This document shows positions 2,261 to 47,221 of a stretch of DNA of 64,000 nt, in pieces (positions within the stretch are counted from its first letter, which is position 1; each line of letters starts with the position of its first letter). Origin of the DNA: Ceratodon purpureus (taxonomy: Eukaryota > Streptophyta > Bryopsida > Pseudoditrichales > Ditrichaceae); the NCBI GenBank assembly GCA_014871385.1, contig CM026426.1:1473544-1537543 (forward strand), read 5' to 3'. The notes under the pieces were generated by a model that did no database searches, was not told where the DNA came from, and saw nothing but the letters and a program-made list of their open reading frames with translations. The translations under genes were made by a program, and so were the position numbers.

Positions 2261-2791
2261 TCAGACCTCCCCAGAGGTGAGGGGAAAATTGATGTTGGAA
2301 GCGGTCATAATCTCCACTTGCTCTAGAGTATGTGCAAGAGTCCAATCCCACTCCACACCAGGCTGCATTACGCATGCAATGTAGTTCCATGGAGGAATCT
2401 CTACGCCGCGACCACGGGCGCATTCCACCGCCATAAACCACGGACGAAGCTCCTCCACTCCTTGTGGCCAAACAACCGGCTCCCATTCATCCTCATTAGA
2501 ATCAGCCATAGAGGAGCCCTCGCCGGAGGTGAGGGGAAACTTAATGTTGGAAGCGTTCATAATCTCCAGTTGCTCTAGACCATGTGCAATAGTCCAATCC
2601 CACTCCACACCAAACTGCATTTGCCGTGCAATGAGGTTCCACAGGGGAATCTCTACGCCGCGACCACGGGCGCGTTCCACCGCCATAAACCACGGACGAA
2701 GCTCCTCCACTCCTTGTGGGGAAACAACCTCCTCCCACTCGTCTGGCGGGTAACTTGACACCCTAAAACCACCGCCCGACCTCGTCATCAT
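2261..2791 (-). CDS. Small protein with a tandemly duplicated unnamed domain
   Basis: The ORF has 176 codons with ATG at 2791 or 2788. The protein contains two copies of a domain of about 70 residues (roughly residues 17-88 and 101-173). Each copy has an acidic start (DEWE), a PQGVEELRPWFMAVE-like segment, a GRGVEIP turn, then a core with conserved Ala, Glu-Trp-x-Trp, Glu, Ser and Phe at fixed spacing. I do not recognise the domain. The same core occurs on the minus strand at 28366-28830 and 46008-46436, which strongly suggests these are real proteins. The two halves are also close relatives at DNA level, a recent internal duplication. The gene sits between AT-rich inverted repeats, as cargo of a transposable element would. 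There is no signal peptide or membrane segment. It is probably a small soluble protein of unknown function. Confidence 0.6.
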   Translation of the reverse strand: MMTRSGGGFRVSSYPPDEWEEVVSPQGVEELRPWFMAVERARGRGVEIPLWNLIARQMQFGVEWDWTIAHGLEQLEIMNASNIKFPLTSGEGSSMADSNEDEWEPVVWPQGVEELRPWFMAVECARGRGVEIPPWNYIACVMQPGVEWDWTLAHTLEQVEIMTASNINFPLTSGEV

Positions 2792-3074
2792 AGCAAATGA
2801 ACTACAAGTAGATGAAACAGAAGGAAAACTAAGAATGAAACAACTGTTTCGTCGCCCAAAGGAACTTATGCTTATGAAGCAGCATGGGCAGGAACCCGAA
2901 TGTTCCAGAGTAACGAAGGGGACTTTGACTAGACTCGGTAACGGGACTTTGACCGATGTGGGCTTTCGAAAGTCCGGATTTACTTAAATGTGTCATTTTA
3001 ATTTATTATTAAAGAATTGATTAATGGGATTGTATGCTTGAACAAGCATCTAGAGCCTTTCTAGATATCATATA
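2792..3074. other. Upstream region of the duplicated-domain gene
   Basis: This is the 5' flank of the minus-strand gene and the transition back to AT-rich DNA. I see no second gene and no clear TATA box that decides a start. Confidence 0.3.
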
Positions 3075-3600
3075 TTAATACTACAATTATAATTATGATC
3101 ATTGGTTTAATAGGTTTCATTTGAATCCATATTTTATGAGTTTTGTTTTATAAAATGAATGAACCAAACATTCCACTTTCTTATTAGAATGTAATAAAAT
3201 TGTACAAATATAAGTCAAGGTAGAACATTAATGAATTGATTAAGGTTTATGTAATTTCCATGCCAATCATACAAGGCATACCATGGTTTAAATATTTGCT
3301 TCTCATGATTAAATATAAAAAATTCAATCTTCTAAAAAACGTATATAATTTGCCATGATAAATGAATTGAATTCTATAATCTAATTCTATTATTTTTAAC
3401 AATGTATTTCGTATATACTTGAATATACTTGTATATCATTTTAAGATTTGTATATATTAGAATATAGTTTATTATTTTCGTACTATTCTTAATTGGACAT
3501 TAAATTGGTAATGAATATATTAGTACCTACTTGTAAATGAATATATAATTATATTATACATATCATAATACTAACATGTATATTAAAAATATACATGTTA
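3075..3600. repeat. Right arm of the AT-rich inverted repeat
   Basis: This is the inverted counterpart of 1126-1690. From its right end inward, on the opposite strand, it gives the acatgttagtat, tactaatatattcatt, aagtatatacgaaatacattgtt and aaatatttaaaccatggtatgcctt words of the left arm in order. Its last part also matches copy A at 81-335. AT-rich DNA without a gene continues to about 4002. Confidence 0.75.
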
Positions 3601-4002
3601 AGATGTAGAGTTCCAGAAACGAAAGAACAAATCTACACCATTCACGGCGTAAAGAACACATTATGAAATAAATAGAGACATAAATAAAAGTACATGAATA
3701 TATATACATGATAATTATATCTGACTAAATATGTAGAATAAATAAATAATTCTAGATTTAAAAATATATCTACCAAGGTCTATCAAGAACTATTCATGAA
3801 CTCACATATAATGATTTGATTTCATATATCATATATAATAATGAAATTGAGCAAAAATACATATTTAATACATGGAGGTATGAATATTTGCAACGATATA
3901 CTTCCCTGTATGAACCTTATTCACGAAATTCAAATAGGTTCAAACAATTTTCAATTTAATTTTATTCCATATACGAGATATTTAATGTCCCTAGAAATGC
4001 CT

Positions 4003-4088
4003 TAACCCTATACCCTAAACCCTTAACCCTGGACCTAAGACCCTAAACCCTTAACCCTGAACCCTATACCCTAAACCCTCAACCCTGA
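4003..4088. repeat. Degenerate interstitial telomere-like repeats
   Basis: The stretch is a run of imperfect seven-base units around ccctaaa/ccctgaa/ccctata, for example ccctaaacccttaaccct. This is the plant (Arabidopsis-type) telomere unit read on the C-rich strand, with many variants. It is internal and short (about 85 bp), so it is an interstitial telomeric relic rather than a chromosome end. No gene is supported in 4089-4680. Confidence 0.7.
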
Positions 4089-4680
4089 TAGAGGAGGAAA
4101 AGTTTGCGGCCAAAAGTCAACACTCTGTCTGGCGCTATAGGGACTTCCAACCCATCCCATTTGATTTAATGCACCAAATATTTCGCATCTGCATCTATCT
4201 AAAGGGCCGAGAAGTATGGAAAGTGGTAATTCCCGCGCTTTCTCACACCCCGAAATGTGGAGGGACGAATGGTCATGCATGATTCCCGCCTATTTTCAAA
4301 ACTCAAGCGGCATGAAAACGGTCACACGTTAGAGAATGACCTCTAGAATCGTCCCCGCTCGAAGTCTTTTCTCTACTCACTTGCTTCTCTCGCATGTAGG
4401 AGCTCTCGGCGCTCACTTGGAGGTGGTTGTTTTCTGGGCGGAAGCTGTATTGCGTCGTTTCTCTTGTACGTCTTCTCTTTAGTTTTCTCCGATCATCAGT
4501 ACATCTCATTGATTTCTCGTTGTTGTATGCTTGCGATTGTTTCAATTCATAATGTATTAGCAGTGTCTCACTTACTACTTGGAAACGATTGAGAGCGGAT
4601 ACCGTAAGCGTACTCTAAGTCTGAGACTCCGAATTCCGACGATGTAAGCACCTATTAAAGCGCCGCTTTTTGCGGACCGC

Positions 4681-4894
4681 AGTTTAGCTCGAGTCGAGCT
4701 AAACTGGTGCATTTAAAGGGCATCATGAGTTTAGCTCGAGTCGAGCTAAACTTCTGCATCCAAAGGGCAGCAGCAGTTTAGCTCGAGTCGAGCTAAAATT
4801 CTGCATCTAAAAGGCAGCAGCAGTTTAGCTCGACTCGAGCTAAACTCCTGCTTCCCATAGTCGAGGAACAGTTTAGCTCCAGTCGAGCTAAACT
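4681..4894. repeat. 47-bp tandem array, each unit holding a 25-bp palindrome
   Basis: Five palindromes start at 4681, 4728, 4775, 4822 and 4870, so the period is 47 bp (48 at the last step). Each has arms agtttagctcga and tcgagctaaact around a single central base, with one or two substitutions in units 3 to 5. The spacers are related (ctgcat, aaagggcag, cagc) rather than unique. The array ends about 90 bp before the first open frame of the DUF7869-like gene. Related, looser palindromes lie at 7955-8720 and 17299-18150, so the motif belongs to a transposable element, most likely as a binding site for its own protein. Confidence 0.9.
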
Positions 4895-4987
4895 GCGCCT
4901 GGGATAAGTTCTCAAATTTAAAGATGAATTCTCTTCAAGGAGTATAATATGTTCTAATAAAATTGGATCTGTTACATTCCAGGTACA

Positions 4988-5338
4988 ATGGATTATGTCT
5001 CAGATGACGAGGTACCGGTTGAAGCGCCCGTAAACCCAGACCTTCCAGAGTTTGTGGTTGTACCCTCAAGACAATGGCAGAACAAGACTGTAACAATATA
5101 CAGTGACGACTATCCCGTTAGCAGAGGGTTTGATCCGGAACCCACGGTCCAGCTTGGTATCTGACACGGTTGGTCCCCTTGGTGATTCCGTTGTCGTCGT
5201 CCAAGTATCACGTTCGTTTGTCAAAGAAGAGTCAGAGGATGATTGGAGGTACTCCTTCAAAACGTGGCCTATCAGCCACGTCTATCTGGATGGAGTTTGC
5301 CTAGAGCACCATAGTCAACGTGATGTGTATAACCGTTG
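4988..5338 (+). pseudogene. Probable N-terminal part of the DUF7869-element protein, frameshifted
   Basis: An ATG at 4988, just after an attccag that could be a splice acceptor, opens 58 codons beginning MDYVSDDEVPVEAPVNPDLP and ending at TGA 5162. From about 5160 the frame starting at 5103 carries on with plausible protein sequence (VGPLGDSVVVVQV..) to a stop at 5337. One frameshift near 5160 would join the two. The start resembles that of the small gene at 16983 (MDY..DE.V...PVN..P). The region 5340-5615 has no clear frame. Whether this belongs to the same protein as 5616-7824 is inferred from position only. Confidence 0.4.
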
Positions 5339-5615
5339 AGTTGCGGAGCGTAACCGATCCCTGGGAGATCGTACCTGATCGTATGATAACTCCTCTAGGA
5401 ATACCCCCCCGTCTATATCACGTCACGCTGAGTTTCTGATGACCCAGCCATCTTTCAACTCTGTAGCGGCAAACACGTGCTGCGCTCACCTATGCGTCCA
5501 TCACTATCCCAGAGATATAATCTCTACTCTGCGATCGCATATGTACGACAAGACCACCGTGCAGTTCCGAAACCATACAAAAATCGACGTGCATAGATAG
5601 ATTCACAAGAATTCA

Positions 5616-7824
5616 ATGGGGCGGAGTGTAGTGACTCTACAGGGCATAAATGTTTGCCCCTTCGCGTGGATGAAGATCATGGGAGTGAGCTCTAGTACAT
5701 TTTATAGAAATGCTAAGTATGGTGCTATTGGTTTTGAAGCTCAATTTCATGGTAACACTGGTTTACGTAAACCTAGAAATCTCAGAGTTGTAGCAACTGC
5801 CATCCTAGGGGCCATCCTTGACAGGCATGCCGACCACATGCCCCACGAGAGTCGTGTCCTGCCCATAGGGGAGACAGCTATTGCTAAAGTTCTACCTTCC
5901 AGTTTCAAATGGAAGGAACAGATTCTGATCCTCGATGAACATCTAGCGGACTGTGGATTGCCTCCTATGTCCACTTTTAACTTGAGCAAGATCAGGAGGC
6001 TTAGCTATCCAGAATATTACGCCAAACGAGCAGGAGACACCTTTGCTCGTTGCTCGAAATGTGATGAGTTCCAGTCCCAAAAGAAGTTGACCTCAATAGG
6101 CACTCAAGCGTCTCTGTTATGGTCTAGGAAAATGAGGCTGCACAATGACTCGGCAATGGCGCATAGGGACTTGTATTACGTAAATCGATTCAGGTTGAAG
6201 GCTACTCCTCATGAAGTTCTTACAATTATGCATGACAAAATGGACCACTCCAAGACATCGTCGCCGGCCTTATCCCACAAGATCAAACACTTAGATGGTC
6301 TCATAAAGCTTCCTCTTGCTTTCACGGGAATGCTTGCTCATGCGCATGTGGATCAGCGTTATGCCCATTATGGCCTTGACATTTACTCACACGACCCTAA
6401 TTACACGGTTGGATCGTTTGCAAAGGCTCCTTCGGGATCTTGAGTCACCTCCTAAATCCACCTCCATGGAACTCTTTCAAGAAAATCCTTCTCATCCATT
6501 GTATGCCACGCTTTTGCATGGTTTAGAGATGTGTCTGGATCCTGTTGGCCCTCTTCTTGAGGTTCCTGTTGCTGCAAAACCCTTGCCTCCCATTCTAAAC
6601 GTCCAAATGGATAACGCTGTCAGCGATAACAAGAATAGATTTGTTTTTTCATTCTGGTCCCTATCAGTCGCGAAGCGGGTGTTTCGCTAAGTGTACGTGA
6701 ACTTCATGCTGGTCGGCCATACTCATGACGATATTAATGCCCTTTTCGGACGATGGAGCATGGCTTTGTGGAGGGAGGACTTCCCCGCAGTTCCTCTCCT
6801 CATGAAGTCCTTCATGAAAAATGAAGCTGTACCAACAATTCCGCATCTGATTCACGAGGTCCTAGATTTCAAGAAATTCATCGCGGAGTGGATGCTTGAT
6901 GGCGACGACATGTTAATGGGTCACACTAAAGCTCATCAATTCAAGTTCTATGTAGATTCTTCAGGATGCCCAGTCATGAAATATAAAATCTTCTGTCACG
7001 ACAACGACTGGCTTCCAAAAGGAGATGGATGTGGCATCAAATTGTGGAAGGAGGATTTAGAAGGTCGATCTTTATGGCCCCGTGGTGTTCTTGGTGCCAT
7101 GGCGCCTCGCGAGATGCGGCACCTGCCTGATGTGATTAAGGGCTTGTCGGGTTTTGTAGATCATTGGGAGAGGCTATCTTCAGATTCAGTCCAGTCCAGA
7201 AGAATCTATGAGCCACTCTCATACTATTGGAACGATGTTAAAGAGGCTCTTTCCATCCCCTTTGATGCTGTCCCCGCTTTGGAGCAGGGTTTTTGGCCAT
7301 CCACGGGGCTCGCTCACTCCGTCGAAGACGAGTTTCAGGAAGATGGAACTTTGCGCGAGGAGTTCGCAGAGGATGATCACTTTGTTGGTCACAAACGAGA
7401 TCGCCCAAGACCGTCATTCCGTGTTGCGCGAGACCTTTTTGGAGTGTACTTCTTAGCGCTACGACCCTGCGATGAAGACGATCGTCCTTTCTGGCTTGCG
7501 AGGGCTTTGACTGACCCTAATTCGAACCCTGACCTCCCGAACACGATCCAAGTAGAGTTCTACCGCCCAATTTCCCGAGATGAAAATGTTTTGAAATTCT
7601 ATACCGGCTGGGATGTGGATGGGAGACTTCGTTGGACAGTTGAGAAGGATGTACCCGAGTCGTGGCAGAGTACTGATGCAGTCATAACAGCTTGGAAATC
7701 CAAAGTTAAAAAAAATGTCAACGAGCGGGGCGTTGGCAAGGATCCAACGCTAAAGATCCCACTGAAACAACTGGACATTATAAAGGCCTCCTTGGAGAGA
7801 TTTGTGTCTCCGGATTTTGAATAA
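5616..7824 (+). pseudogene. DUF7869-like transposon protein, broken
   Basis: Three open segments make up one protein: 5616-6443, an overlapping frame from about 6316, and 6691-7824. The first segment has HGN..KPRNL, ILDRHADHMPHESRVLP and a C-x2-C pair (RCSKCDEF), the layout seen upstream of DUF7869. The next carries VQMDNAVSDNKNR and, after a stop, VGHTHDDINALFGRWS, which matches the D-N..NKN and GHTH-x-D motifs of DUF7869, thought to have an RNase H-like fold. Lesions seen are a frameshift between about 6400 and 6440 and an in-frame TAA at 6688-6690 between the two motifs. The C-terminal 377 codons are intact. The gene is flanked by palindromic repeats on both sides, so it is probably the main protein of that element. 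Family assignment is from motif memory and needs a profile search. Confidence 0.65.
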
Positions 7825-7954
7825 ACATGTAGCTTTGAAGTTGGTGGTCTTGAAGTTCTGAATTTAGTCAGATCGCTTATATTCGTTTGAAGACGACTGA
7901 ACTGAATTTCGTTCGTCCCTTCATCCAACATTATGTTTTCTAGACAAAGGTAGA

Positions 7955-8720
7955 TGTTTAGCTCGAGTCGACCTAATCAGTTATAGCGTATTAGTTCTAG
8001 CCTATCTATGTTTTGAATACTAGCTAATTACATATATTTAATTGGAGGGAACACTACTTAAGTGTTTCAGTCCATTCCTTATGTATCATGTGTACCACAT
8101 TATAGGCCGCAGTTTAGGTCGAGGCGACCTAAACTGCATTTGGCATTGAAGTTCGTACTTTACAAGTGCGGGATACCAACAGGTCACCTATAGTTCTTCG
8201 TGTAGATTTTTACTTAGTACCCTAAAGCGTTGATTCTATATCATATGTACTGCTCATACCAGCCATTTAGGTCGAGGCGACCTAAACGACATCTAGCGTT
8301 GAAGTTCCTAGTTTGGATTTCTTAAGTAGAGCCGATACCATACATTTGTTGGTATGGGACTATACTGAAGTCCGTATGTTCTTTGATTGCATATCATACT
8401 GTGGAAACTGTAGGCAGCTATGTTGGTCAAACAACTTGATTGTTTGTACAGGTCTGAAAGAGCCTGTCACGGATTCAACATTTAAGGAGTGTCGACCTAA
8501 TTTGTATTTCCACACATATATATAATATAAGATTTCCCAGCATATCCGTTGTGTCCATTTCTTGTTATTTGTTTGATGTTCATTTAGGGTGGTTCGACCT
8601 ACCTTGTATTTTTTCAAATATTTCTAGTAAACCACTACGTTCTTTCATTTCCCATTAGTACTATGCTTATAAGCTTTTCCTTGCCAAGTATGGGACCATT
8701 GTGCCCATTTTAACTCGACG
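7955..8720. repeat. Dispersed palindromes at the 3' side of the DUF7869 gene
   Basis: Palindromic sites of the TTTAGGTCGA..CGACCTAAA type occur at about 7955-7976 (one arm altered), 8111-8135 (arms agtttaggtcg and cgacctaaact) and 8265-8287. Decayed half-sites follow near 8488, 8583 and 8710. The 5' array at 4681 uses AGCT in the arm where these use GGTC/GACC, so left and right versions differ consistently. The intervening DNA is AT-rich without a supported gene. Confidence 0.8.
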
Positions 8721-8751
8721 TGACCTAATGCATTATTTTGGAAGATGATAA

Positions 8752-8780
8752 ATCTCCCAAAATAACGAATATGGTGTTAT
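8752..8780. repeat. Shared end sequence, copy 1
   Basis: The words ctcccaaaataacgaata and tggtgtta here recur at about 18281-18307, in both cases just after a run of palindromes. It may be the 3' terminus of the palindrome-bearing element family. No matching inverted copy was found near 4.0-4.7 kb by eye. Confidence 0.55.
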
Positions 8781-9292
8781 AGGAAAATGATTATTGGTAA
8801 AGGGGGGCATTAGAGAACAATTCGGCTCTAGAAGAGGCCCTTTGCGGGCTGGTTTGCTCACAGCAATAGGACAGTGCCCCGTCCAAATTCTCTCGTGCTG
8901 CCATCATTACCGCTTGTAATTACATGGCTTGATGTCTCAGCAGTTTAGTGGGTTGGACATGTGAGGACTCCTCGAGGCGCAATCTACCTGGCCGAGTGTA
9001 TATAGATCAATGAAGTGCAAGCCTGGACGGTTGTGAATAGAGTAATCCCATGTATTGGCACCACAGTACCGTGATGGAAACTCACACTCTTAGAGATGTA
9101 CCTCGCGTGTGCGAGACCACAGTATCTTATTCCCTGCAGCTCAATATTTTATGCTGCGGGTGTACCAAAAGACTTGGTGCTGGTAGCGGGAAGAATGACT
9201 AGTCAGCGCGGTAAGGTAGATGACTCAGGAATATGGCAGTATATAGTCAGCTTCAATGGGTGAGGTGAAGTCATTTGGCATCATAGTGACCA
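8781..9292. other. No gene seen
   Basis: The base composition is more balanced than in the flanks, but every frame is interrupted. It may be the eroded 5' part of the coding region that becomes readable at 9293. Confidence 0.3.
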
Positions 9293-9676
9293 TTGAGTTG
9301 GCAGGTGGTTTGCTGCAGCAATAGGGTGCGGACAGGCGAGTTGTCATTGCAATCCAAGGCTACGTTGCAACGACCACGAGCGGAGGTGCAGGCCGCTGTA
9401 TTGATCAATGATCCAGACTCTGCTAACAAGTGGATACCACTGCGTGTGGAGATTGGTAGTTGGGTGGCTTTGCAGTCGTCAACTACCGGTCCTTGGTCTA
9501 GAAATGCCCTGAAGTATGGTCGAGATAACAATGCTGGAGCATGGAAGGCACAGATTGTTAAGTTCGAGTGGTTGTCCAAAGATGTTCGTGGTCGTATGGT
9601 TATGCACTTCGATTCTGTTATGGTGCGTCACGGTTACCAGCAGCGGGAGCTTATACTGCTTGATCCTGTCGTTTAG
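9293..9676 (+). pseudogene. Unrecognised coding remnant
   Basis: The open frame of 127 codons has no ATG at its start. It contains protein-like sequence (INDPDSANKWIPLRVEIG, AQIVKFEWLSKDVRGRMVMHF) and ends LILLDPVV then TAG. I do not recognise it. It lies on the same strand as the DUF7869 gene and is followed by another open stretch in a different frame, so both may be pieces of one decayed gene of the palindrome-bearing element. Confidence 0.35.
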
Positions 9677-9822
9677 GGCACAGAGCCGCGTGCGTGTAAC
9701 TACCTCTACTCTTCGTATTGGGTCCCTAGCATCTAGGTGCCCTCAGCATCTATACTCGATATTATACTTGTACTGCATCACAAGATGGCAAAGCGTCCAG
9801 GAATGGCCGATTCTACAAAGCT

Positions 9823-10590
9823 TTGATGGAGGACGGAACATTCTATCTTCGAGTTGTCTATGTTCCAAGCTCAAGTAGAGAGCTGTATGGTAGCTTGGAG
9901 GCCATCCCGCTTCCTGAGCTTATGGACCCGCAATGGCCCCTTCCTGACATGCACAGTTCAAAAGCATTTCGTAGGAAGTTGGCCATCGATATTGCTTCAG
10001 CGATGAAGGGGGCGGCTGGTAGCAGCAGTGCTCATGTCTAGTTGTTCATTCCGATCCATCTCATGGCAGATCTATATGCGTGCGCTGATAGTATTAGACG
10101 CACTACGACAATGTATATCTTCAGCTCTCCCTCTGCCGAATTGTTTGCCAGCCTGATGATTGCCGGGTGGGACGAGAAGTATGAGGCGGGGCAAGACGTC
10201 ATCAAGTGTGTAGTTAGCCATGCCAGCATTGGGTTCCGCTATCACGTCGGGCGTCAGACATTGTATACTAATTTCTAGTATGTCCGCCACAGAGCTGCGG
10301 AGGGACAGACTTGGGTTGCAATTGATCAAGTAGGGATTGTGGAAATGATGCATGTAACCGTCGTGTTTGCCAGACAAGAACTGCCAACGATTGAGGTGGG
10401 ACGGTCATGGTCTGTATCACACCTCCGCGATGAGATTTCTATTCTCTTGCCAAGAGACACAATTCCGGAAGAGTACGACCTAGTGATTGAGCGACCTGGG
10501 CATCGAGACTGCAAGGTACGCAACGATTTCGGACAATTGTGTTTGTTGTCAATGATGCCGTCGTCTGCGTTTGTTGCTTGCAAAATTTGA
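9823..10590 (+). pseudogene. Unrecognised coding remnant with in-frame stops
   Basis: One frame runs about 255 codons with only two internal stops (TAG near 10039 and 10276) before TGA at 10588. This is far more open than chance. Segments read as protein: LRVVYVPSSSRELYGSLEAI, MIAGWDEKYEAGQDVIK, and a stretch near 10339-10530 alternating hydrophobic strands with PTIEVGRSWSVSHLRDEI. That last part faintly recalls a ubiquitin-like beta-grasp, but this is only an impression. Function unknown. The region 10593-11446 holds no supported gene; a short inverted repeat (tttgataccct and agggtatcaaa) lies near 11141 and 11187. Confidence 0.35.
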
Positions 10591-18307: not shown

Positions 18308-18308
18308 G

Positions 18309-27371: not shown

Positions 27372-27469
27372 TACGAGTATGAGTCCCTGAGTTGCTATGG
27401 AGGGAAGAAATTAGAACGTGCATGAGATTTGTCACAGATTACGCTTTTAATTGAGAGGTGTTTGACGGT

Positions 27470-31312: not shown

Positions 31313-31696
31313 TAAGGCCACGTGAATTCTTAAACATTGACTGGAATTTGTGCTCGAATACGTATTATCGTGTCCAAAGCTCCAAAAGTCTAAATATGTC
31401 TTTGGTAATAAGATTTGACTAGGTGATATGTGGGACACAGTTCTGCGTCATCGAAAACGTGTTGTGAGATAATGGAACATCTACATAGACGTCATGTGGC
31501 GTCACAATAAACGCGATATAAGCTCCTATGTTGAATCCGTGAGTTATGGATGTCACTTGAAACGGCATGTAAAGCCTTCTAAAACACTATCCTATGTCAC
31601 TTTGAACGGGGTTTAACATAACCTACACATGCGGTTGAACGCCATTACCTGTATGAAGGCGGCATCCTAACCTTCCAAAAGTGCCCGTGTGCAGAA

Positions 31697-34600: not shown

Positions 34601-35021
34601 GGACATGAGTACAGATGTCCGGACTTGCATCATGAGGGTCAGCAGGGTATTTAGGCGCTTGTGTAGTCGCACAGTCGACATGTCTAAAGAACAGGAATGG
34701 ATTGCAAACGCGAATGAGACGCTTTGTATGATCGAGCGCGAATTCCCCCTGGGGTCAATGGTGATCATGACACACCTTCTAGTGCATCTCATGGAGGAGC
34801 TCTTCATATGCGGTCCAGTTCATTGCCGCTGGATGTACTCGATGGAGCGATACATGAAGACCCTTAAGGACTATGTGCGTTCGTATGCTAGACCAGAGGG
34901 CTGCATGGCGGAGGCATACTCAATGGAAGAAACACTCGGATTCTGCTCAGAGTATATGGAACGTTACGGAGCTACATCCCGGAGAGTGTGGGATGCAAAC
35001 GTAGAGCAAGCAATGCATGAC
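31697..35021 (+). pseudogene. TNP2/TnpD-like CACTA transposase, 5' part (element 1)
   Basis: ATG at 31697 starts a protein with the transposase-associated Cys cluster (C37-x-C39-x2-C42). The TNP2 (Transposase_21) region follows: LYPGSTVSL.., HGVSNAF, LGLSYNIIHACPAGCVLF, VVRHFPLIPRLKRMF, LSLDGMNPF, WPVLLVIYNLPPW, TKGYKACPVCG, LPYWK, RHTLDVMHCEKN. Supported introns are 33703-34069 and 34418-34574. DUF4218 begins with VSRVFRRLC and WMYSMERYMKTLKDYV, then stops where the gypsy element inserted. Damage: a frame loss at the T-run 32457-32460 before the second zinc-type Cys pair, and several frame breaks between 33177 and 33390. The family cuts CACTA termini; this copy is inactive unless the breaks are sequence errors. 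Confidence 0.85.
32565..32700. repeat. Dense GTCAT..AACG motifs in a transposase intron
   Basis: At least five copies (gtcatctcaaacgta, gtcatatgtaacgca, gtcatctcaaacgta, gtcatcagtaactca, gtcatttgaaacgta) follow one another about every 20-27 bp. Similar motifs fill the next intron (about 33780-33980). Confidence 0.75.
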
Positions 35022-35677
35022 TGTTACCTACAACAGCCACGGCGATCAAGGTAACCAGGGGCGGTGAAGACTAGCAGTTAGAGGAAGGAGCAGTCGAAGC
35101 AGGGAAGTCGTAGTTATAGCAGAAAGATAGGACAGAACTTAGTATAAACAGGGTAGCTAGGGGAAAGCTTACACTCTTCAGTTTTTGTGACGATGTTGAG
35201 TCAGGATACTTGGTACGCTTGTGTTTTCTTTGTAAGCTGGGGCTCCATTGCTCCACGATGCCTTGGGTGTCTCGGATAATACACTCCCTCCCTCCTTTTA
35301 CTTGCACTTACTCTGTTCCGACTCTTGCACCCTGAGCTGCTTGCTAACCCTAGTCTGACCTTGTTGGGCATGTTGTCTCTCTCTACCTTCTTCCTCGTCC
35401 TCCCACACAGTCGGTTCTCTTTCCTGAGACAAGGAACTGTTCCATCCTTTCATCACCCGGGTACTTAGTCACCTTAGCTAGACCTCATTCGCCTTGGCTT
35501 CCAGGTCGGCCTTGACGAGCCTCCAACGGTCTTGGTCCTGGCTCTGGGACCCTCCTTGTTCCTATGACCATACGGCCCCTCCTAAGACCATGTGACCGTG
35601 TACTCAGGTTATAGGTGTTCACGGTCCCCTTGGTTATAACCGCACCTAGCAACTCCATCCGTCCAGCCCAGATAACA
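35022..35677 (+). repeat. 5' LTR
   Basis: 656 bp, from tgttacctacaac to cccagataaca, identical by eye to 43514-44169. A possible TATA box (tataaa) lies at 35143-35148. Confidence 0.97.
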
Positions 35678-35679
35678 TT

Positions 35680-35698
35680 TTGGCGACCATGCTGGGGA
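35680..35698 (+). promoter_or_regulatory. Primer-binding site
   Basis: tggcgaccatgctgggga starts two or three bases after the 5' LTR, where a tRNA primer anneals. The form TGGCGAC..GGGGA is common in plant Tat/Athila-like elements. I did not determine which tRNA. Confidence 0.75.
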
Positions 35699-35750
35699 TG
35701 GATTGCTGAGGTATTCCAAGTTCTCCTTGAAAACTTAAAAACCGCTTACC

Positions 35751-38700
35751 ATGCCTCCCAGAAAACTCCCCCTAGATCGGATCAATGAAGCAGAGGATAC
35801 TGCTCAACAAGATGACCCTGAATCTACGAAAGATTTCCTTGTATGGATGAAACAACAGATGACCGAGTTAGTAGCCAAAAATGAGGCCACTAATGCTAAG
35901 TTGGAAATACTTAGCGCACAGTATCACACCCTCCAAGAGAGTAGAACACACGAGGCCATTAATGCTACGCCCCAGGCCTCAGAAGCTCTCCCTGAAGCAC
36001 TAAGATCCCCCACGATTCCAAGGGATAACCACACAGCGGCTACTCTTCCTAGCCAAGGTGATACAAGTAAAACTATTAAGTATCCCAAGATCTCTTACCC
36101 CGTGTTCGACGAATCAGGAGACCCTGATTGGCACGTTCGGAGATTTAAGGTTATCGCTAGAACAAATGGAGTCACCAATAATGAAGACCTCCAGAATATT
36201 TTTGGAACCACGCTTCAAGGTAACCACATCAATTGGTATATTGATTTTGAGACGGAACACTCGCACGCTACCTGGGATGACATGGAACGGAGTTTTCTGC
36301 ATAAATTCAGAAAATTGAAAACTAGTTCAGAAGTCCTCCGCGCTTTAGGCAGCATTACCCAGGATAAAAACGAACCAGTAGATAAATTCTACGACAGATT
36401 TAAACAGCTGGCCGACAAATTAAGTCAGCGCCCTGAAGAAGATTACCTCTGTGAGTGGTTCAAGAAGGGTCTGTTGCCATGGATACAACAGGGCATTGTG
36501 ATCCGCGGCGTTAAAACTTTGCAGGACATCCTGACTGCAGCAAATGATATTAGCAGAGAGCTAGGAGCCTTAAACCGAGTACAGGCACCCCTGTTACCTT
36601 TACCCAACCTACGACCAGAAACTAGGCCCCCCTTGGCTCCTTGTTCCAGTTGTGGAAAAATACATGGAGGACGCTGCTGGTACGCTAACACCTCACCACG
36701 ACCTGAGGATACCCGACGCCCTCGGCCTACCGCGGCAACCATATACCCTGAAGAAATAAACGTAGATGCATTTCAACCTAGCCGAGGAGATGCGTGCTGG
36801 GAATGTGGTTCGTTAAATCATAAACGAGGCCAATGCCCTCAGTTACATCAGCGATGGGCTCAGTATCGTTCCAACCCCGGCCAGCAAGGAACCATGGAAA
36901 ATCCAAAGGGGCCTGGAACTCCTAGAAGGGGCGGAGTCACACTAACTGAAGTACACGGAGTGGAAACCAGTGTGTCCACTATTAGTACTGCAGTAGTAAC
37001 GACCCGATCCAAGGCTCCCACGGAAAATCACGTGGTTGAACACCGCAAACCTTTTTCAGAAAATCACTGGGAAAGACTCCATAGGATACGACAGGACTTA
37101 CAAGAAGGCCTGGAAAATTCCCATACATCTTCACCTTTGCAGCAGATCTTAGACGATACCAATGTTACCATCACGTTATCCAAATTGATCAAGTTAAGCC
37201 CTGAACTCCAAAAATACCTACAGCAGACAGCCATACCTGAAGGAACAACCGACCCAGAAGTCATTGAAGTTAATGCTACTACTCTGGACCCAGATGCCGC
37301 GGTAATCCATTTACAACTAGGGACTCATGAAGTAGCCAATGTATTGGTAGATGGAGGCTCTGGAGTGAATGTTATGAGCAATCACCTGAGAAAACAATTG
37401 GGACTACCCTCACCACGGTTGGCCCAGTTCATCCTACGAATGGCGAATGATGCCCCAGTAACACCCTTGGGTATCTTGTCCACGGTAGCCATTACCACAC
37501 ATGGTGTGTCGACACCAGCCACTTTTGTCATCATTGAAATGCCAGATAGTAGTAATTTCCCGGTAATCTTGGGACGGCCCTGGTTGAGAGACATGAATGC
37601 CATCCACGACTGGTCTAGAAATCAGATACGGATACAATGCCAAGGGAAAACGGTCGTAATCCCCGTAGATAGCTGCATCACAAAGGCTCGAGCCAACCAG
37701 ATTCGACACAATGCGGGAACTAACTGGGCCGGTGGACTATCACCCAAACAAGAAGCCATGGTGTTTCAGGCCAACCCTGATTTAATCCCAGTAGCGGAAA
37801 TACATTTGGCCAGCATGGTGGCTGAACAAGACCAAATGGATATACCACCTCATTTTTCCCAGGAACTCCAAGAAAACATTACAGTTAACGCCGTCCCTGC
37901 CAACCAAACCTTGCAGAACGAAATAATTACAGGATGGTCCCATGGAGCCAAGGACAAGGTCGAGTTAGTAAACCTGGGAACAGACGAAAAACCCAAATAC
38001 ATCAAGATCAACGCTGACGCTCCCAAATCCATCAAACAAGCCGCGATTGCCCTGTTCCATGAATATCAGGATATTTTCGCTTGGGGCCATGAAGATCTCA
38101 AGGGAATACCTGCAACCTTGGCAGAACATACCATAGATTTGGTACCAAATGCAACCCCGGTACAGCAACGGAGATACAGGATGAACCCCAATTATGCGGA
38201 AAGAGTCAAGGCCGAGTTAGACAAACTGTTGAAGGCCAAGTTTATTTCGCCAGTGGACTCCGCTCCCTGGCTGTCTCCCATGGTTATTATTCCCAAGAAA
38301 AATGGGACATTAAGAATTTGCGTAGACTTTCGCAAATTAAATGCAGCCACAAAAAAGGACCATTACCCCTTGCCTTACATGGAAGAAATTATAGATGAAG
38401 TGGCAGGCCATGAAATGTATTCATTTTTAGATTGTTTTTCGGGATATTACCAAGTTGCCATGGCTGAGCAGGATAAAAATAAAACGGCATTTTCTACGGA
38501 ATGGGGGCCTTATCAGTTTGAACGAATGCCTTTTGGAGCCAAAAATGCCCCCATGACATTCCAACGTGTCATGGAATTAATATTCCGGCCATACTTGAAA
38601 AGATTCTTTCGGATTTACTTAGACGATGGAACGGTTTATGGCCACATTAAAGATCACATTTCTCAGCTCCGGCAAATATTTGAAGCTTGCCGTGCCAATG

Positions 38701-41700
38701 GAGTAAGTCTCAATGCTGAGAAATGCATGTTCCTTTTCTTTGCTGGAGTAATCCTGGGGTACATTGTTTGTAAGTACGGAAAACTCCCTGATCCCGAAAA
38801 AATCAAGGACATCTTGGAAATCACCCCACCCAAGGATCAAAAGGGCATTCAACGCCTGTTAGGACTCTCACAATTCAATCGCATATACATAGAAAAGTTA
38901 GCACATATTACCGCTCCAATCACGGCTTTAAATCATGCCAAATACAGGTATCCCCAAGACTGGACCCAAGAAGCCCAGGCCGCCCTTGAAAAAATTAAGC
39001 TAGCCTATTCCCGTGCTCCTATTCTCATTGCGCCAGACTGGTCCAAACCATTCCATGTTCATACAGACGCATCCAATATTGCCGTGGGAGTCATGCTAGC
39101 CCAAAATTTAAATGGGAAATATGACCAACCAGTGGCTTACGCCAGTCGCCTATTAAACCAAGCAGAAAAGAATTATTCTACAACTGAACGAGAAGCCTTG
39201 GCCATGATTTATGCTGTTAAAAAATTTCGACACTATTTACTTGGAAACAAGTTCCGCTTCATGGTCGACCATCACAGCTTGTCCTACTTGGTAAATCAGC
39301 CCTTAGTAACAGGCCGCGTTGCTCGCTGGATAATGATCCTCCTGGAGTATGATTTTGAGGTAGTTTATGTTCCCGGTAAACGTCACATAGTAGCTGACTA
39401 TCTATCCAGGGACTCCAAGGCTACCGAGGAGGGAATTGATGATTCGTTCAACGAATCTTACATTCAGACTGCGAGTCTGGAAGTTGATATCCCTGGTGAT
39501 TGGCGGGGAGACATAATGAGATATCTCACTCAAGGCACTACACCCCCAGGACTTTCTGGCACTAGACGGGTTAGCTTTGTCCGATCAACCCTGCCATACA
39601 CAGTCGTCCAAGGGCAACTTTACAGACGCGGCCTCGATGATGAAACACGACTCTGTGTACCGACAGGAGAAGAACAGAACATTATAGCTATTCTCCATGA
39701 CGGCCCAGCCGGGGGCCATCAAGGCCCAGACACCACGATTAAAAAGATTTTGGGGGCCCGCTACTGGTGGCCAACACTGCACAAGGATGTCCACGCCCAT
39801 GTTAAAAATTGTCATGCATGTCAGATTTCTACAACAAATTTTCAACATCAGGGCCGAGTTCCCTTAAAATCAATCCCACCGTTGGGACCATTTCAACGCT
39901 GGGGGCTGGATTTCGTTGGTCCCATTCGTCCTGCAACAAAGCAAGGCTATAAATACATCCTGGTAGCCACGGATTATACCACAAAGTGGGTCGAGGCCAA
40001 GCCCTTGAGAACCAATACTGCCGTGGTTACGGCATCTTTCATATATGACAATATTATTACACGTTTTGGCTGCCCCTTGGAAATTGTATCGGACCAAGGT
40101 AGCCACTTTGTTAATGCGGTTATTGAGGACTTGTTAGATAACCACATCATTAAACACCGGACCAGCACTGTCTACTACCCCCAAGGGAATGGTCAGGCCG
40201 AATCTACGAACAAAACCTTGATCAACATGCTAAGAAGGTTCATCCATGCTAACCAGAGTGATTGGGATGATTGCTTACCAGCTGCACTATGGGCTTATCG
40301 TGTAGCCACGAAAACCGCGACTCAGGTTAGCCCGTTCGAAATGGTCTATGGAACCCAGCCCTTATTACCCACGGAATACATAGCCCCTACTTTCCAATCC
40401 TTGCAAACCAAGGATTTAGCGCCTCATAGAGTTTTAGCTGCTCGAATCCAGGACATCCATCATTTGGAAGAAATCAGGGCTCTAGCAATTAAAAACATAC
40501 AAAACAGGCAGGAACTAACAGCAAAACACTTCCAGTCCACCAAGCCAGTCAGGGTTTTTCAGAAAGGTGACCAAGTGTTATGGTGCCCCAGGGACCCCAA
40601 GTTACGAAAAACAAAATTCGAATCCATTTGGCATGGGCCGTACAGGGTACAGTTAGCACTCCCTAATAACACCGTGTTGCTCGTAAATTGTGAGAATTTT
40701 GATCACCATGCAACCATCGTCAATTCCACTAAATTAAAACACTACCATACGGCACAACCAACCACAACACCCACGCTTAGTCTTGGAGACATTTACAAAA
40801 AATTAGCCAATGAAGCCCACGCTAATTTGGAGGACGCGGATAGCTTAGACCCTGAACCCAAGGAATCCACTGCCACCGTGGAAGTTCATGTTAGTCACAT
40901 CCGGGTCTGCCTCCCAGTTGGCCAGGGACACCTTGGATGTCATGACAATGGGACACAATCAAATTTTGCTAGTTCCCGCATCATTAGGCCCCCGCCGCCA
41001 CCATCATCGCCACCCTGTGGACTAGACAGCCTACACTATGTCACCCCCTGCCCCTCCCCATCAGTCCAGTCGAGGCCGCCAAGGATCCAGGGACAATCAT
41101 CAGTTCACCAAGGGCCGCTCCCACTCACTGCTCCTCTCTCACCATGCCCTTGTCTTCTTCCTCCCTGGGTTTCCATGCGCACTGGCTCCTTTGTAGTCAC
41201 TCTCCATAGCGACCCTCGGCATTCCATTTCGCCACAGCTCCCTCACCCCCTCCTTCTTCCCTGGACCTTCCCCACAGTACGCCCAGTGTTAGTCATGGCG
41301 AAGAACAAGAAACCATACCCTCCTTTCTATGTCCCAAGGATGATTCTAGAGTGGAAACGCAAACCGGACCTTATTTGGCATACCGAGGTCGGATTAGGCA
41401 AGTATCTCACACTGCTGGAGGGAAAGGTCAACATCAAACATTGTAATGACTTCGTGACATCCATGCGAGCCCGGGACGAAACAGAGCTTTACCCGTCCGG
41501 GATGGTGGAGGGCGTGCTGGTGCAGTTTTCCGCGCGCTACCTACACAAGTTCTTCGGATGGGACGGATTGGGCGCCACCACCTGGAGCAGCGACTGCCGA
41601 TATCCTCAGCCCGACATTGCAGCCCGCGTCGGCAACCTGCAACTCAAGGAAGACAAAAGGTACGATGTTTTCGCCTTGGGTGACCATATGCAAGATCCAT

Positions 41701-43469
41701 GGTTTTCGCGGATGCGTGGAGTGCTTAGCCAAGTTTATTTTCAGAACAACTGTAATGGCATTAAGCCAGAACAGTTGTCTCTGCTTCTCATGGCCGACCA
41801 AGGCGAGAAGATCAATTGGGGCATGCTGGTAGAGGAGAACTTCCGCATCCAGCTGTTGGGACATCGCAAGGATCTCGACTACCACAGCCCCATTGGGCCG
41901 TTTCTCACAGCCTACATCCAGAATTACTTGGCGTTTCATAGAAGACATGGTAAGGGGCCGCTCATGGGGACCTTTTTTGACATCCAGCGGGAGCTCGCTA
42001 CAGTTGCAGCACGAGATCCCAGTCTTCCAGGCCCAAGCAAACGCCCACGAAGCGAGGAACCTGCCAAGACACCAGGGGCAACATCAGCACCAACAACAGC
42101 CACAGCATGGGGACCATGGGCAACACGATTCCACACCAAGAGTACCGCCCTTTCCGAATGCGTGGGGGAGATGTTGGAATGGATCCGCAAGGCCGAGCTG
42201 GAGAAGCAGGAGCAGAGCAATATGGAGGAGCGTTACAAACGCAAGGTGACCGCGGCTGTCCAGGGAGCCCGAGACCAGGCCCAACGAGTCCTCGACAACA
42301 CTCATGTAGAGTACCGCCAGCAGATAGAAGAGAAGGACCAGACCCTGTCTAATTTGCGCCATCAGGTTGCTAACTTGGAACTGGAGCTCCATGCCACGCA
42401 AGACCACGTAGACACACTCTCCAAGGAAAAAGCTAGTGCAGGGGAACGTATCCAACACCTGGAGCAGCAAGGGCAGGAGTATTTAGCACGCTGCAAGACC
42501 CTCACAGCGCAGAATGAGACCTTGAGGCTGGGGCAGAAACCAGAGGAGACCACGGACCTTCAAGACCAGAGGACCACGGCTGAACAAGCTCTCCAGGAGT
42601 TCGAGGCTAACAAGCTGGGTTGGATCCACACGGCTGCCAAGTTGATAGCCAACAACGCCTACACATGGCTTCGCGAACATCCTGCAACGACAGCCGAACC
42701 TCCCCAAGAGCTTTTCGACCATTGCATTGACACTACGCTGGCTACTTTAGAGATGGAGCAGTCAGAAAATGACTGGGAGAACATGGAGCTGGATCCCATG
42801 GATCTCGAGTCTTTGGACATGGAAGCCTTGTCACTACCTTCCTCAGCGGTCATTGGGACAGTACCAACCAGCCCCCCCCAAGCACCACAGGAGGAAACGC
42901 GACCTTCAAACCTCATCATCCCGAATGTCCATGACCGAGCAGAACGTGTAGACATCCCCGACCAATTCACCGACCCCGAAGACACCCCCCAGCCGTCACC
43001 GAACCTGCAACCACAGCTGCAACCTCCACAACCACAGGTGAATTCCCCGGTACCCATGCGTTCCAAGTCTATTAAACATCATAAGGATGCCTTGAGAAAA
43101 ATAGAGGAAGAATATGATCTCGAGGAAGAAAACAGCGATGAAGAAGAAGCCAAGGAAGAGTTAGCGACTGCAATTACAGAGGTCAAGCGTTATTTTGAAG
43201 CTAACCCTGACCTAGTTGCTTTGTACAGCGACACCGAGGCTAATCATGTGCAATGCCCTGCCTGCAATAAAATCCTAGGAAAAACAGTATACGACATTTA
43301 TCAGCATGCCATGACTTCTAGGACCAAACACAACCTAATCCATCGGGGTGTTGGTGCAGCCATAGCCGCAATTCATGGCGATCAAGCTCCACCCCGCCGT
43401 CTCGCACAGCTGCCCAGGGAAGAAACTCGGCCCGATCGACGACCCGCCCACCGACGCACGCGTGGCTGA
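35751..43469 (+). CDS. Gag-pol polyprotein with long C-terminal extension
   Basis: One 2572-codon ORF. Gag lies at about residues 160-240. The zinc knuckle is C349-x2-C352-x4-H357-x4-C362, with a weaker CSSC..H..C just before it. Protease has DGGS at 534-537. Reverse transcriptase carries YLDD at 956-959. RNase H has its first Asp at about 1106. The integrase HHCC finger is at about 1315-1360 and the DDE core is D1387, D1448, E1484 (D-35-E spacing). After a low-complexity Pro/Ser linker (about 1690-1848), an in-frame Met at 1849 could start a separate product of 724 residues. This has a region like the putative plant transposon protein domain ([15 protein letters not shown], then [16 protein letters not shown]), a long coiled coil (about 2140-2265), an acidic stretch, and a finger C2502-x2-C2505..H2519..H2531. 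All catalytic residues I can check are present. Confidence 0.95.
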
Positions 43470-43498
43470 ACCTCCAATCCGGGACGGATTGTGCTCTC

Positions 43499-43508
43499 GG
43501 AAGGGGGG
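43499..43508 (+). promoter_or_regulatory. Polypurine tract
   Basis: ggaagggggg lies five bases before the 3' LTR and 30 bases after the stop codon. This is the expected primer for plus-strand DNA synthesis. Confidence 0.85.
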
Positions 43509-43513
43509 CTAAA

Positions 43514-44169
43514 TGTTACCTACAACAGCCACGGCGATCAAGGTAACCAGGGGCGGTGAAGACTAGCAGTTAGAGGAAGGAGCAGTCGAAGCAGGGAAGT
43601 CGTAGTTATAGCAGAAAGATAGGACAGAACTTAGTATAAACAGGGTAGCTAGGGGAAAGCTTACACTCTTCAGTTTTTGTGACGATGTTGAGTCAGGATA
43701 CTTGGTACGCTTGTGTTTTCTTTGTAAGCTGGGGCTCCATTGCTCCACGATGCCTTGGGTGTCTCGGATAATACACTCCCTCCCTCCTTTTACTTGCACT
43801 TACTCTGTTCCGACTCTTGCACCCTGAGCTGCTTGCTAACCCTAGTCTGACCTTGTTGGGCATGTTGTCTCTCTCTACCTTCTTCCTCGTCCTCCCACAC
43901 AGTCGGTTCTCTTTCCTGAGACAAGGAACTGTTCCATCCTTTCATCACCCGGGTACTTAGTCACCTTAGCTAGACCTCATTCGCCTTGGCTTCCAGGTCG
44001 GCCTTGACGAGCCTCCAACGGTCTTGGTCCTGGCTCTGGGACCCTCCTTGTTCCTATGACCATACGGCCCCTCCTAAGACCATGTGACCGTGTACTCAGG
44101 TTATAGGTGTTCACGGTCCCCTTGGTTATAACCGCACCTAGCAACTCCATCCGTCCAGCCCAGATAACA
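43514..44169 (+). repeat. 3' LTR
   Basis: 656 bp, identical by eye to the 5' LTR, followed by the second atgac of the target duplication. Confidence 0.97.
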
Positions 44170-45444
44170 ATGACGAAATGGTGAAGGGCATGGGTACGAA
44201 ACGAGTGATGTCCCGCACTCTTCGGGACTGGATTCACAACTTCGTAGTCACAAACGCGGCCACATTGCAACACTACAGAAGGTGCGATGTTTACGTCATT
44301 ATTAACAGGAGGGTTCCTTTATCACAGATTCGGAACATGACTAAACATAGGTTTGCGTCATGTTTTCACGTTACTATTAACATACGTTAAGATAGGAACA
44401 CGTCATCATAAACACGTATTGACGTCTAAGACAGTCCGCTTGCGCTAACGCATGCTGCCAATAACGTTAAAACGCGTCACTCTATTGAAGATAATCCCCT
44501 AGTAATTTGCTGTAACCATGAATGCTGATGGTGTTTGACAAAACAGCAAATGTCGGGATGTGTCTTATTCTAGGGCGTACGAGGTCGAGAAGTCGTCCAA
44601 GTTATTACTCGGGAGAGGGAGCCAACGTGGACGAGGTGGGCGAAGGAGACGCCCACCTTTTGTCAATTCAGCACAGGCGAGGGCCATGCCACCATTTTCA
44701 ATGTGGCTAAGAACAGCGGTTGACACAGACCGGGCAGCTCGATCGAGGCGCATCGATCAGACTACGTACGACTTGTCCAGACCTCCCAGTGTAAACGCAA
44801 CGGCCTATCGATCGATGAAGGCCTACGGCATGCACTTCCGCTGCCGCTCAATTGAAGCGTCTTGCACCACCATGGACAGTGGAGTGCACGCTACCTTCAC
44901 CGACGACGAAGGGGCACAGACAGAGCAGTACGTGGGGCATGTTGAAGAAATACTGGAACTAGACTATAGGCGCACATGCGTTGTAGTTCTACTCTGTTCA
45001 TGGGTTAAAGGAAGAATGGGAGGTGCGTCACCAACAATGAAGCGAGATGAACATGGCTTTATGTCTGTCAACTTCGCTGATCAAAACAACATACCTCTAG
45101 GTCCCCAATCGTTTGCGTTCCCCATTCACGTGCACCAAGTGTTTTATGTTCAAGAGGATGGGCCGTGGAAAGTAGTGTGCAAGGTTGAGGTTAGCGGCAG
45201 CCGTGGAGCACGCGCATTTGCTGATGAACATGATGACGCTGACACAGTGATCACCAACAGCCCCCATCCATGTGGCGCCAGTAACGTAGACAGACGTGGA
45301 AGAGGGCACTCGGAAGCGGAAGATTCCATAAGGAACGGCTCTTTTGTCCACGTTCACGTAGTAGAGCCTGTGGGAGCAGGAGATGTCGCTGACGATGAGG
45401 ACTCGGACCACCTCCTTGGCGATTCATCAGACAATGATGAATGA
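44170..45444 (+). pseudogene. CACTA transposase, 3' part: end of DUF4218 and DUF4216-like region (element 1)
   Basis: This is the continuation of the gene interrupted at 35021. 44170-44281 gives EMVKGMGTKRVMSRTLRDW.. and ends at a donor-like CAGAAG then GTGCGA. After an intron with more GTCAT..AACGC motifs, the frame open from 44560 becomes convincing from about 44640: MPPFSMWLRTAVD, LSRPPSVNATAYRSMKAYG, VGHVEEILELDYRRTCVVVL, CSWVKG, HGFMSVNFAD, HQVFYVQEDGPWKVV. This is the DUF4216 pattern found at the C-terminus of TNP2 transposases. An acidic tail (VADDEDSDHLLGDSSDNDE) ends at TGA 45442. The true acceptor is uncertain. Confidence 0.8.
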
Positions 45445-45469
45445 AGACTTCAGGACCTAATTTGCATGA

Positions 45470-47221
45470 CATCATAGCATGTTCCAAGTGACGCACTGTC
45501 ACGCGTTTGTAATTCCAAAAAACATTCGCTTATGTCCACGAAGTAGTCATTAATGTTAATGTTACGTCAGTGGTGACGCTCGGGCTATCAATGGAGACGC
45601 TTGCTTGTCTAGAATGACGCAACAAATGTTGAAATCTCATGTCAACATTGACGTGAGAGGTACAGCGCAACCGGACTTGAAGCAAATCACCACACGGTTA
45701 CTTTAAGTAAATCACACATTTGACATTACAAAGGAATTTGGTTGTTCACCAAGCACAGCAGAGGCACAATTTCCAACCCTAAATGTGCACAGACATGTTT
45801 CCATGACCGCACTCTCCTATTCAATACACACATGCGAATCCCTCAAGCAGAAGTAGATTCTGTTAAAGCCTTTGTGCTCAACGTCGAAAGGTACGGTATC
45901 TATACAGGAAGTAGATTCAGTACAACTCCAAACAGACTATACAAGTTTCCGTGACGAGCGACTCGTGCTCGGTAGTCCAATGTGCAGCTGGGTATGTAAA
46001 ACTTTGCCTATCCCTGACGTGCAGAATCCCCCAACCAACTCACGTGTAGAATTCCCTGGCTCTCCGGGTTCGCACACGCAGCAGAGTTTGAAGCCCTATT
46101 AGAGCTTCTGGCGTCGCTGGTCCTGAAGGGAAACGCGACTAGAGAATCCGCCATGACCATCAGGAGCTCAGTGGTGCAGCACACTGTCCAACGCCATTCC
46201 GCTCCGGGCTCCACTAGCTTTGCAATGTGTCTAAACTCCCGGACATCCATGCCGCGACCCTTCGCTCGCTCCACCTCTGCCATCCATGGCGGCAGGTCTT
46301 CCACAGTTTGCGGAGCCTCCGCGGTTAAACCCACTGCTGCTCTCGTCCTCCTCGATGTTGCAAGACGCACGCTCGCCATTTCAGCAAATGCTCTGTCTGT
46401 GCCCCCGGCCTTCCCCCCCACCCCCGACTCGGGCATGGCTGACCTATGAAGTGTGGCGCACTCACACCTCCTGGTGACCACCGATCCTGTTGACACTATC
46501 CAAGCACAGAAAACCTAGGATGTAAACACGTTTTCGTAAACACAGCTTGACTCAATTTCATGTTTACCGTGACGCTCGCGTCACTATTGACATCCCCTAG
46601 GATGTTGACTAGGTCGAGCCCTAGGTGCCACGTTGGCCGCACCTTATCCGCACAAGGGACACGTCAGCTGTTCCAATATGTCATATGAGACACATACTTG
46701 ACGCGTTTTGATGTCACTGGAAACAAACGCGTCACTATTGACACCCCCCCGGTCTGTTGACCTTGTTCAACCCTTGAGTCCATGTCAGCCATAGCTTCCA
46801 CGTCAATTGGTCACATCAAAAACGCTTTCCACGTCGGATCTCTAATAACGTCACTTTTAACACATTTTAACATGTATGACACCCATCTATGTTAAAAGTG
46901 ACGTGCGGACTTTAGATATTACCATATTTAGCCATTTGAAAATCACCGCGAGGTAAAAAACCCCTTCAAAAAGTTACTTTTCCACACTGCCGGATCTACC
47001 TTGTATGTCTCTCTTGACGCTGCTATGTCACTCGTAACATCCAAGGTGACGTAAATTTATTTCGCGTCAAAGCCGCGTCAAATGTGACATTCGCACGTTA
47101 ACCCTACTTGACGTACACTACGTCACTTTGGACCAGATTTCCACACTAATTTCGTATAGTCTGGGCCCGTGTCTTCTTTGACGCGTTTTTACGTCCCCTA
47201 AGCCTCGGTTTTCCTCTAGTG
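45470..47221. repeat. Right-hand subterminal repeat region of element 1
   Basis: GTCA-containing motifs paired with aacgc or gacgc recur at about 45480-45660 and densely at 46540-47200 (gatgtcactggaaac, cgcgtcactattgacac, acgtcacttttaacac, ttgacgcgttttta). They stop at ttttcctctagtg, ending 47221, a plausible CACTA-type right end. The small gene at 46008-46436 lies inside this region. Confidence 0.6.
46008..46436 (-). CDS. Unnamed small-domain protein, third locus
   Basis: ATG at 46436 (MPESGVGGKAGG..) opens 142 codons; the frame also extends upstream without a better ATG. Residues about 42-100 (PQTVEDLPPWMAEVERAKGR, GMDVREFRHIAKLVEPGAEW, RWTV, TELLMVMADSLVAFPF) match the domain at 2261-2791 closely, sharing PQ.VE.L.PW, VERA.GRG, IA, PG.EW.WT, E and IM/VM, S and FP. 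The 41-residue core aligns without gaps. It sits in the right subterminal region of element 1 on the minus strand. The protein is small and basic-rich at the N-terminus, with no signal peptide. Function unknown; conservation across three diverged loci argues that it is or was translated. Confidence 0.6.
   Translation of the reverse strand: MPESGVGGKAGGTDRAFAEMASVRLATSRRTRAAVGLTAEAPQTVEDLPPWMAEVERAKGRGMDVREFRHIAKLVEPGAEWRWTVCCTTELLMVMADSLVAFPFRTSDARSSNRASNSAACANPESQGILHVSWLGDSARQG

Follow-up and report, generated by a model that had tools for sequence, protein, structure and literature searches.

The stretch of DNA analysed here (the window) covers 64,000 nucleotides of the moss Ceratodon purpureus and is part of a 110.5-Mb contig (C6) in a genome of 362,488,568 bases. 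The species has, according to an excerpt of PMC8000587, a genome of 360 Mb with sex chromosomes that each exceed 100 Mb, and we infer that C6 is one of these. Our subject is a small protein domain which an earlier note on this DNA had placed, in four copies, within three minus-strand open reading frames (ORFs) at transposons. All four copies were found at the positions claimed (Table 1), and realignment bore out the ungapped core of 41 residues, with Ala+10, Glu+18, Trp/Phe+19, Trp+21, Glu+28, Ser+36 and Phe+40 in 4/4 cores and Leu+30 in 3/4. They form three subfamilies, namely A, whose gene holds two domain copies in tandem (A1 and A2), B and C.

A small domain in three subfamilies

Table 1. 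Positions in the window of the family genes and of the elements that carry them
Feature	Position	Strand	Remarks
AT-rich inverted repeats around A gene	1197-3558		arms about 1197-1603 and 3158-3558; part of larger DUF7869 element
A-type gene	2261-2791	-	176 amino acids; tandem domain copies at about 2528-2719 and 2273-2467
Palindromic TTTAGCTCGA repeats of DUF7869 element	4679-4920		further set 7957-8314
DUF7869 transposase-like gene, partner of A	5601-7824	+	open pieces 5601-6443, 6307-6690, 6691-7824
CACTA element 1	21800-47221		approximate extent from motif array; proposed right end 47221
ORFs at expected site of TnpA-like gene	21939-26784	-	assigned by position only
C-type gene	28366-28830	-	154 amino acids
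SUMO-interaction-like motif PILLDDD in C tail	28522-28542	-	sequence pattern
tnpD exons, Transposase_21 and DUF4218	30734-35054	+	E 5e-12 and E 3e-30, above cut-off
Ty3/gypsy element inserted in tnpD	35022-43813	+	identical 300-nt direct repeats at ends
tnpD part with DUF4216-like stretch	44539-45444	+	26.4 bits, below cut-off 30.6
B-type gene	46008-46436	-	142 amino acids

Each pairwise local alignment score was tested against 2000 shuffles. The two tandem copies of A align with a score of 323 (shuffle maximum 62), and B aligns with A1 at 146 (maximum 53) and with A2 at 153 (maximum 51), whereas C is weaker, scoring 56 with A1 and 58 with B (each reached by 0/2000 shuffles) and 42 with A2 (reached by 4/2000), so that on these tests A and B are certain relatives and C a probable one. 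A search of 1631 six-frame peptides from the window, with a profile built on the three clear copies, found C at an expect value (E) of 2.2e-5 and the next peptide at 1.1, and initial profile-profile comparisons with C gave E 4e-4 to 5e-4 at a probability of 31-34%. Once genome copies had been added, the A+B and C profiles (6 A, 5 B and 7 C cores, picked by hand for diversity among the sequences seen) matched at E 1.5e-8 and a probability of 95%, with a score of 43.3 against 17.3 for the best of 200 column shuffles. It is this comparison that settles the membership of C, the weakest link of the family, and a score so far above the column shuffles rejects the idea that C is a chance match. As judged from their alignments, the four window copies are real and homologous.

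Far from lacking further homologues, an outcome the earlier note had allowed for, every subfamily has at least 150 copies in the genome. Our searches listed the best 150 of 1220 candidates for B, of 618 for C and of 1177 for A, so that totals are lower bounds. By hand count 127/150 B, 105/150 C and 137/150 A rows have no internal stop, in lists that favour open copies because rows are ranked by score. Contig C6, with about 30% of the bases, holds 70 of the 150 listed B copies, 101 of the 150 for C and 108 of the 150 for A. We calculated the ratio of nonsynonymous to synonymous substitution rates (dN/dS) by the Nei-Gojobori method, in which the pairs are not independent, leaving out L004, L037, L038 and L046, which have stops, and L008, which is close to L007. 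Eight B copies of the type carried by the GGGGAAAG element described below gave 0.05-0.29 in those pairs that had at least 7 differences (23 of 28), six C copies gave 0.05-0.51 (15 pairs), and seven A copies 0.17-0.87 (21 pairs); between B groups the ratio was 0.27-0.51 at a dS of 0.9 or more. Such codon comparisons show that A, C and GGGGAAAG-type B are kept under selection.

None of the three window proteins matched a Pfam family above its curated cut-off (the best, Sod_Fe_C, stood below it at E 0.079), and they matched no DNA-binding family there, Myb included. Foldseek gave no significant fold match in the PDB, BFVD and VIA, and nothing useful came from the PDB searched by sequence, from IMG/VR searched for relatives of A3, A4 and A5, from phage records searched by tblastn with the A protein, or from Rfam and tRNA gene scans. 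A protein database search returned 13 matches, six of which were compared with window or genome: P0001 agrees with the window at 99% and P0003 at 97%, P0004, P0005 and P0012 match the C. purpureus genome at 98-99%, and P0013 was judged by eye nearly identical to genome copies. By these identities all relatives shown so far, with six of the 13 protein matches compared, are from Ceratodon purpureus. The open-licence literature yielded nothing on DUF7869 or on moss CACTA accessory proteins, and open-licence papers on Ceratodon purpureus and CACTA included, judged by title, none on such a family, so far as we can see a protein family apparently without earlier description.

Elements that carry the genes

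The earlier note had taken A for cargo between AT-rich inverted repeats, which is wrong in detail. Seven other A loci keep 91-97% identity to the window on both flanks of these repeats, as far as they were fetched, and at one (L044) the match skips from 4052 to 4568-4797, inside the palindromic repeats ahead of the DUF7869 gene, whose DUF7869 match itself lies within 6691-7821 (E 2e-14). Listed A copies lie within 8 kb of 80 of the 109 listed DUF7869 matches, in 80/80 cases head-to-head at a spacing of 2.5-5.7 kb; random placement, for which here and in the B/C and DUF4218 tests below the lengths of several contigs were rounded and in part guessed, gave a mean of 1.5 and a maximum of 6 in 1000 runs. 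Many DUF7869 copies are open across 955 amino acids. Flanking conservation and DUF7869 linkage together reject the cargo reading and place A among the genes of a larger DUF7869 transposon. A telomere-like CCCTAAA/CCCTGAA run lies at 3990-4090, immediately ahead of the palindromic repeats of this element.

C and B lie inside CACTA element 1, as the earlier note had it, with the Transposase_21/DUF4218 gene between them. From its protein matches the element combines Transposase_21 with DUF4218 and DUF4216, as CACTA elements do, DUF4216 being below cut-off. A search for CACTA terminal inverted repeats and a 3-bp target duplication gave a candidate right end only, without a matching left end, and two pieces of the ORFs at the TnpA-like site matched no Pfam family above cut-off. 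Genome-wide, C occurs within 12 kb of 45/150 DUF4218 matches (null mean 2.1, maximum 7 in 500); 39 of the 45 lie upstream in divergent orientation, mostly some 5.7 kb away, and the other six, distant C relatives, are downstream-convergent near 3 kb, in a slot like that of B in element 1. In element 1 and elements related to it, B follows the transposase on the downstream side. Listed B and C copies come within 20 kb of each other in 11 cases (null mean 3.2, maximum 10 in 2000), and five of these pairs lie within 4 kb and are divergent.

Element 1 also holds an array of the motif GTCAN5[AG]ACG[CT], whose 35 occurrences in the window (about 0.5 expected) are all in this element outside the gypsy insert, 33 of them non-coding (p 7e-8) and 26 of the 29 on the left side in one orientation, a confinement within the window that is partly by construction because the pattern was derived from element 1 itself. 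Eight C loci, one of them the window's, carry 64 motifs in 27.7 kb, and seven element-1 B loci, three of which overlap others, carry 67 in 43.6 kb; there were 0 in 28.2 kb of A loci and 1 in 170 kb of GGGGAAAG loci.

B has a further carrier. In the abundant B group, 17/17 fetched loci have a common sequence with an abrupt start at GGGGAAAGTTCG, and B lies about 0.77 kb inward from there. A 28-bp form of the GGGGAAAG terminus, derived from the fetched loci, occurs 529 times in the genome; 16 of 100 listed terminus sites have a listed B copy just inside in the same direction, and of the 26 listed B copies in the genome stretch covered by those sites 16 carry the terminus. No inverted copy of it was found in the fetched 10 kb. 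Minus-strand ORFs of the GGGGAAAG element lie within 4109-10000 of locus L018, one of them with a weak DNA-methylase-like stretch; the best weak match among the ORFs of this element was N6_N4_Mtase at E 0.004, below cut-off, and NCBIfam gave nothing above cut-off for six of them and two DUF7869-gene ORFs.

Counting the DUF7869 transposon of A, the CACTA elements of C and B, and the GGGGAAAG element as a further carrier of B, at least three types of DNA transposon in this moss have the family in common, and we regard it as very probably an accessory gene family of these transposons. The missing Pfam match, the copy number, the repeated slot and orientation and the low dN/dS uphold what the earlier note had suspected, namely that transposons carry an accessory protein family not described before.

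Possible roles of the family

The domain model of A has three helices (mean predicted local distance difference test score, pLDDT, 83), and that of C, whose alignment included A and B sequences, is poor outside similar helices (mean 61). The window cores are acidic, with isoelectric points (pI) of 5.0, 5.0 and 5.6 (whole proteins: A 4.35, C 5.2, B 6.7), which favours protein over DNA binding. Direct DNA binding by the family is disfavoured, and the earlier thought of a DNA-binding factor finds no support in acidic cores (pI 5.0-5.6) that match no DNA-binding family. We consider it quite unlikely that the proteins are helix-turn-helix regulators that bind the element-specific motif: the Myb-like and helix-turn-helix fold matches are weak, come from the weak C model and are not significant, and to this are added the acidic cores and the want of a Pfam DNA-binding family.

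In the tail of 5/8 C-type proteins we find the pattern PI[LV][LIV]D[DG]D, a hydrophobic core followed by acidic residues that resembles a small ubiquitin-like modifier (SUMO)-interacting motif. Peptidase_C48 is a SUMO-protease family. In other plants ORF2 of CACTA elements can carry Peptidase_C48 (PMC8978399, excerpt), so that a SUMO link for C would not be isolated. We tentatively propose that the accessory genes act as anti-silencing adaptors, a suggestion built on sequence, models and analogy that we hold with less than even conviction. The proteins would be acidic adaptors of three helices, with another protein rather than DNA as their binding partner, and would aid their element against host silencing; C would use its SUMO-interaction-like tail to act on a silencing complex that depends on SUMO, and the partner of A and B may be the transposase, an element protein that binds DNA, or a host factor. 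The family and its association with elements are solid, and the mechanism is a commitment rather than a demonstration; accessory gene and adaptor mechanism taken jointly, as the best explanation overall, fall just short of an even proposition. A bolder form, in which the family is an interchangeable anti-silencing module that moved from one unrelated superfamily to another or was taken up by them several times, with B and C as paralogous partners and C working via SUMO, seems unlikely.

Several results weigh against this best explanation. The window's two A units have a dN/dS of 0.67 over 84 codons, or of about 1.2 when the 61 codons of the core are taken, and the element-1 B copies 0.37-1.13 on 9-13 differences, indistinguishable from neutral; the earlier note had named a ratio near 1 and descent from one recent non-coding repeat as grounds for dismissing the family, and these do not hold for A, C and GGGGAAAG-type B, while element-1 B may be neutral. 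Among the listed copies 29/109 of DUF7869 have no A within 8 kb and 70/150 of A have no DUF7869 within that distance. B lies within 12 kb of just 8/150 DUF4218 copies (null mean 1.8, maximum 7), and in five of the eight it is downstream and convergent, at a distance of about 2.3 kb in four and of 11.5 kb in the window, where it stands on the far side of the gypsy insert. Another B group (L006-L008) is without the element-1 motif (0 in 10.2 kb, three loci), the motif arrays also fit ordinary CACTA subterminal repeats, and the C tail motif is degenerate in 2/8 C-type proteins and absent in 1/8.

The alternative to be taken most seriously is a transposition cofactor without a silencing role, a small protein that links the transposase, the TnpA-like protein and the reiterated motif, for which the second protein of PIF/Harbinger and MURB of MuDR are models. 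We consider such a cofactor possible, if on balance rather doubtful. It would account for the fixed site beside the transposase gene, for the motif arrays in element 1, and for B and C as paralogues in one element and as divergent pairs elsewhere (5 within 4 kb); however, one family serves unrelated transposases (Transposase_21, DUF7869), so that a specific transposase partner is not readily expected, and the cores are acidic. A different origin is suggested by the A model, which overlays the thumb of retroviral reverse transcriptase, and by 6/13 weak viral structure matches being retroviral or pararetroviral polymerases: a Ty3/gypsy-type thumb captured by DNA transposons, that would bind nucleic acid or interfere with retrotransposons. 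Profile tests of the thumb were mixed to negative, its score being reached by 0/200 shuffles for A+B, 78/200 for C and 10/200 for A+B+C at a probability of at most 6%, and IMG/VR searched for relatives of the gypsy thumb gave nothing useful; we think this origin improbable. Least credible of all, and very improbable, is that these genes are captured host fragments that hitchhike without function. Plant transposons do take up gene fragments (PMC13317346, excerpt), and a splicing-factor-like one lies nearby at 27606-27830, but the family's frames are mostly open, its dN/dS is mostly far below 1, and the identical slot and orientation recur in dozens of copies, which disfavours the idea for A, C and GGGGAAAG-type B.

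Set beside known systems, the anti-silencing reading has a partial parallel in VANC of Arabidopsis VANDAL elements, likewise an extra protein of a DNA transposon, whose targets are element-specific motifs packed densely into non-coding DNA, frequently with a common orientation and arranged as tandem repeats (PMC5735166, excerpt); the array in element 1 resembles these target arrays by analogy. VANC, however, is encoded by VANDAL (Mutator-like, MULE) elements, binds its motif and removes methylation, whereas the moss family is in CACTA, DUF7869 and GGGGAAAG elements, is small and shares no Pfam match with it. Plant CACTA ORF2 (Peptidase_C48/Transposase_24) is likewise a further protein beside a TAD-Transposase_21-DUF4218-DUF4216 protein, with a possible SUMO link (PMC8978399, excerpt), whereas the moss proteins are free-standing, small and without those domains, and B and C flank the transposase gene on both sides. 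The predicted three-helix arrangement of A is like the thumb of retroviral and Ty3-type reverse transcriptase, but the sequence relation is unconvincing and the moss domain stands free of any polymerase. Accessory proteins of PIF/Harbinger (Myb-like) and MuDR (MURB) are also second proteins beside a transposase, whereas the moss family has no Myb or other known domain and is common to several element types. The transposon-encoded helpers MURB and TnpA are each known from a single superfamily. VANC likewise is known from one (PMC5735166, excerpt). The distribution of the moss family suggests that unrelated transposons have one helper in common for dealing with the host; if so, transposons that compete within one genome would all rely on one protein against a problem that their host poses to each of them, and offer a small, concrete protein set for studying the interplay of transposons and silencing in a moss with a large transposon-rich sex chromosome.

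Other features of the window

Within element 1 a short ORF at 27606-27830 has a weak Syf1/CRNKL1 HAT-repeat match (E 7e-4, below cut-off), is adjoined by a partial repeat of itself at 27379-27430, and is perhaps, by that match, a captured splicing-factor fragment. A second CACTA transposase, with Transposase_21 and DUF4218, lies at 55041-57678; a profile search of window peptides found no A, B or C copy near it, and a minus-strand gene at 51140-51793 has a weak Transposase_24 match. Beyond these, an inverted repeat at 59149-61268 has 564-nt arms that are 96% complementary and stand 992 nt apart.

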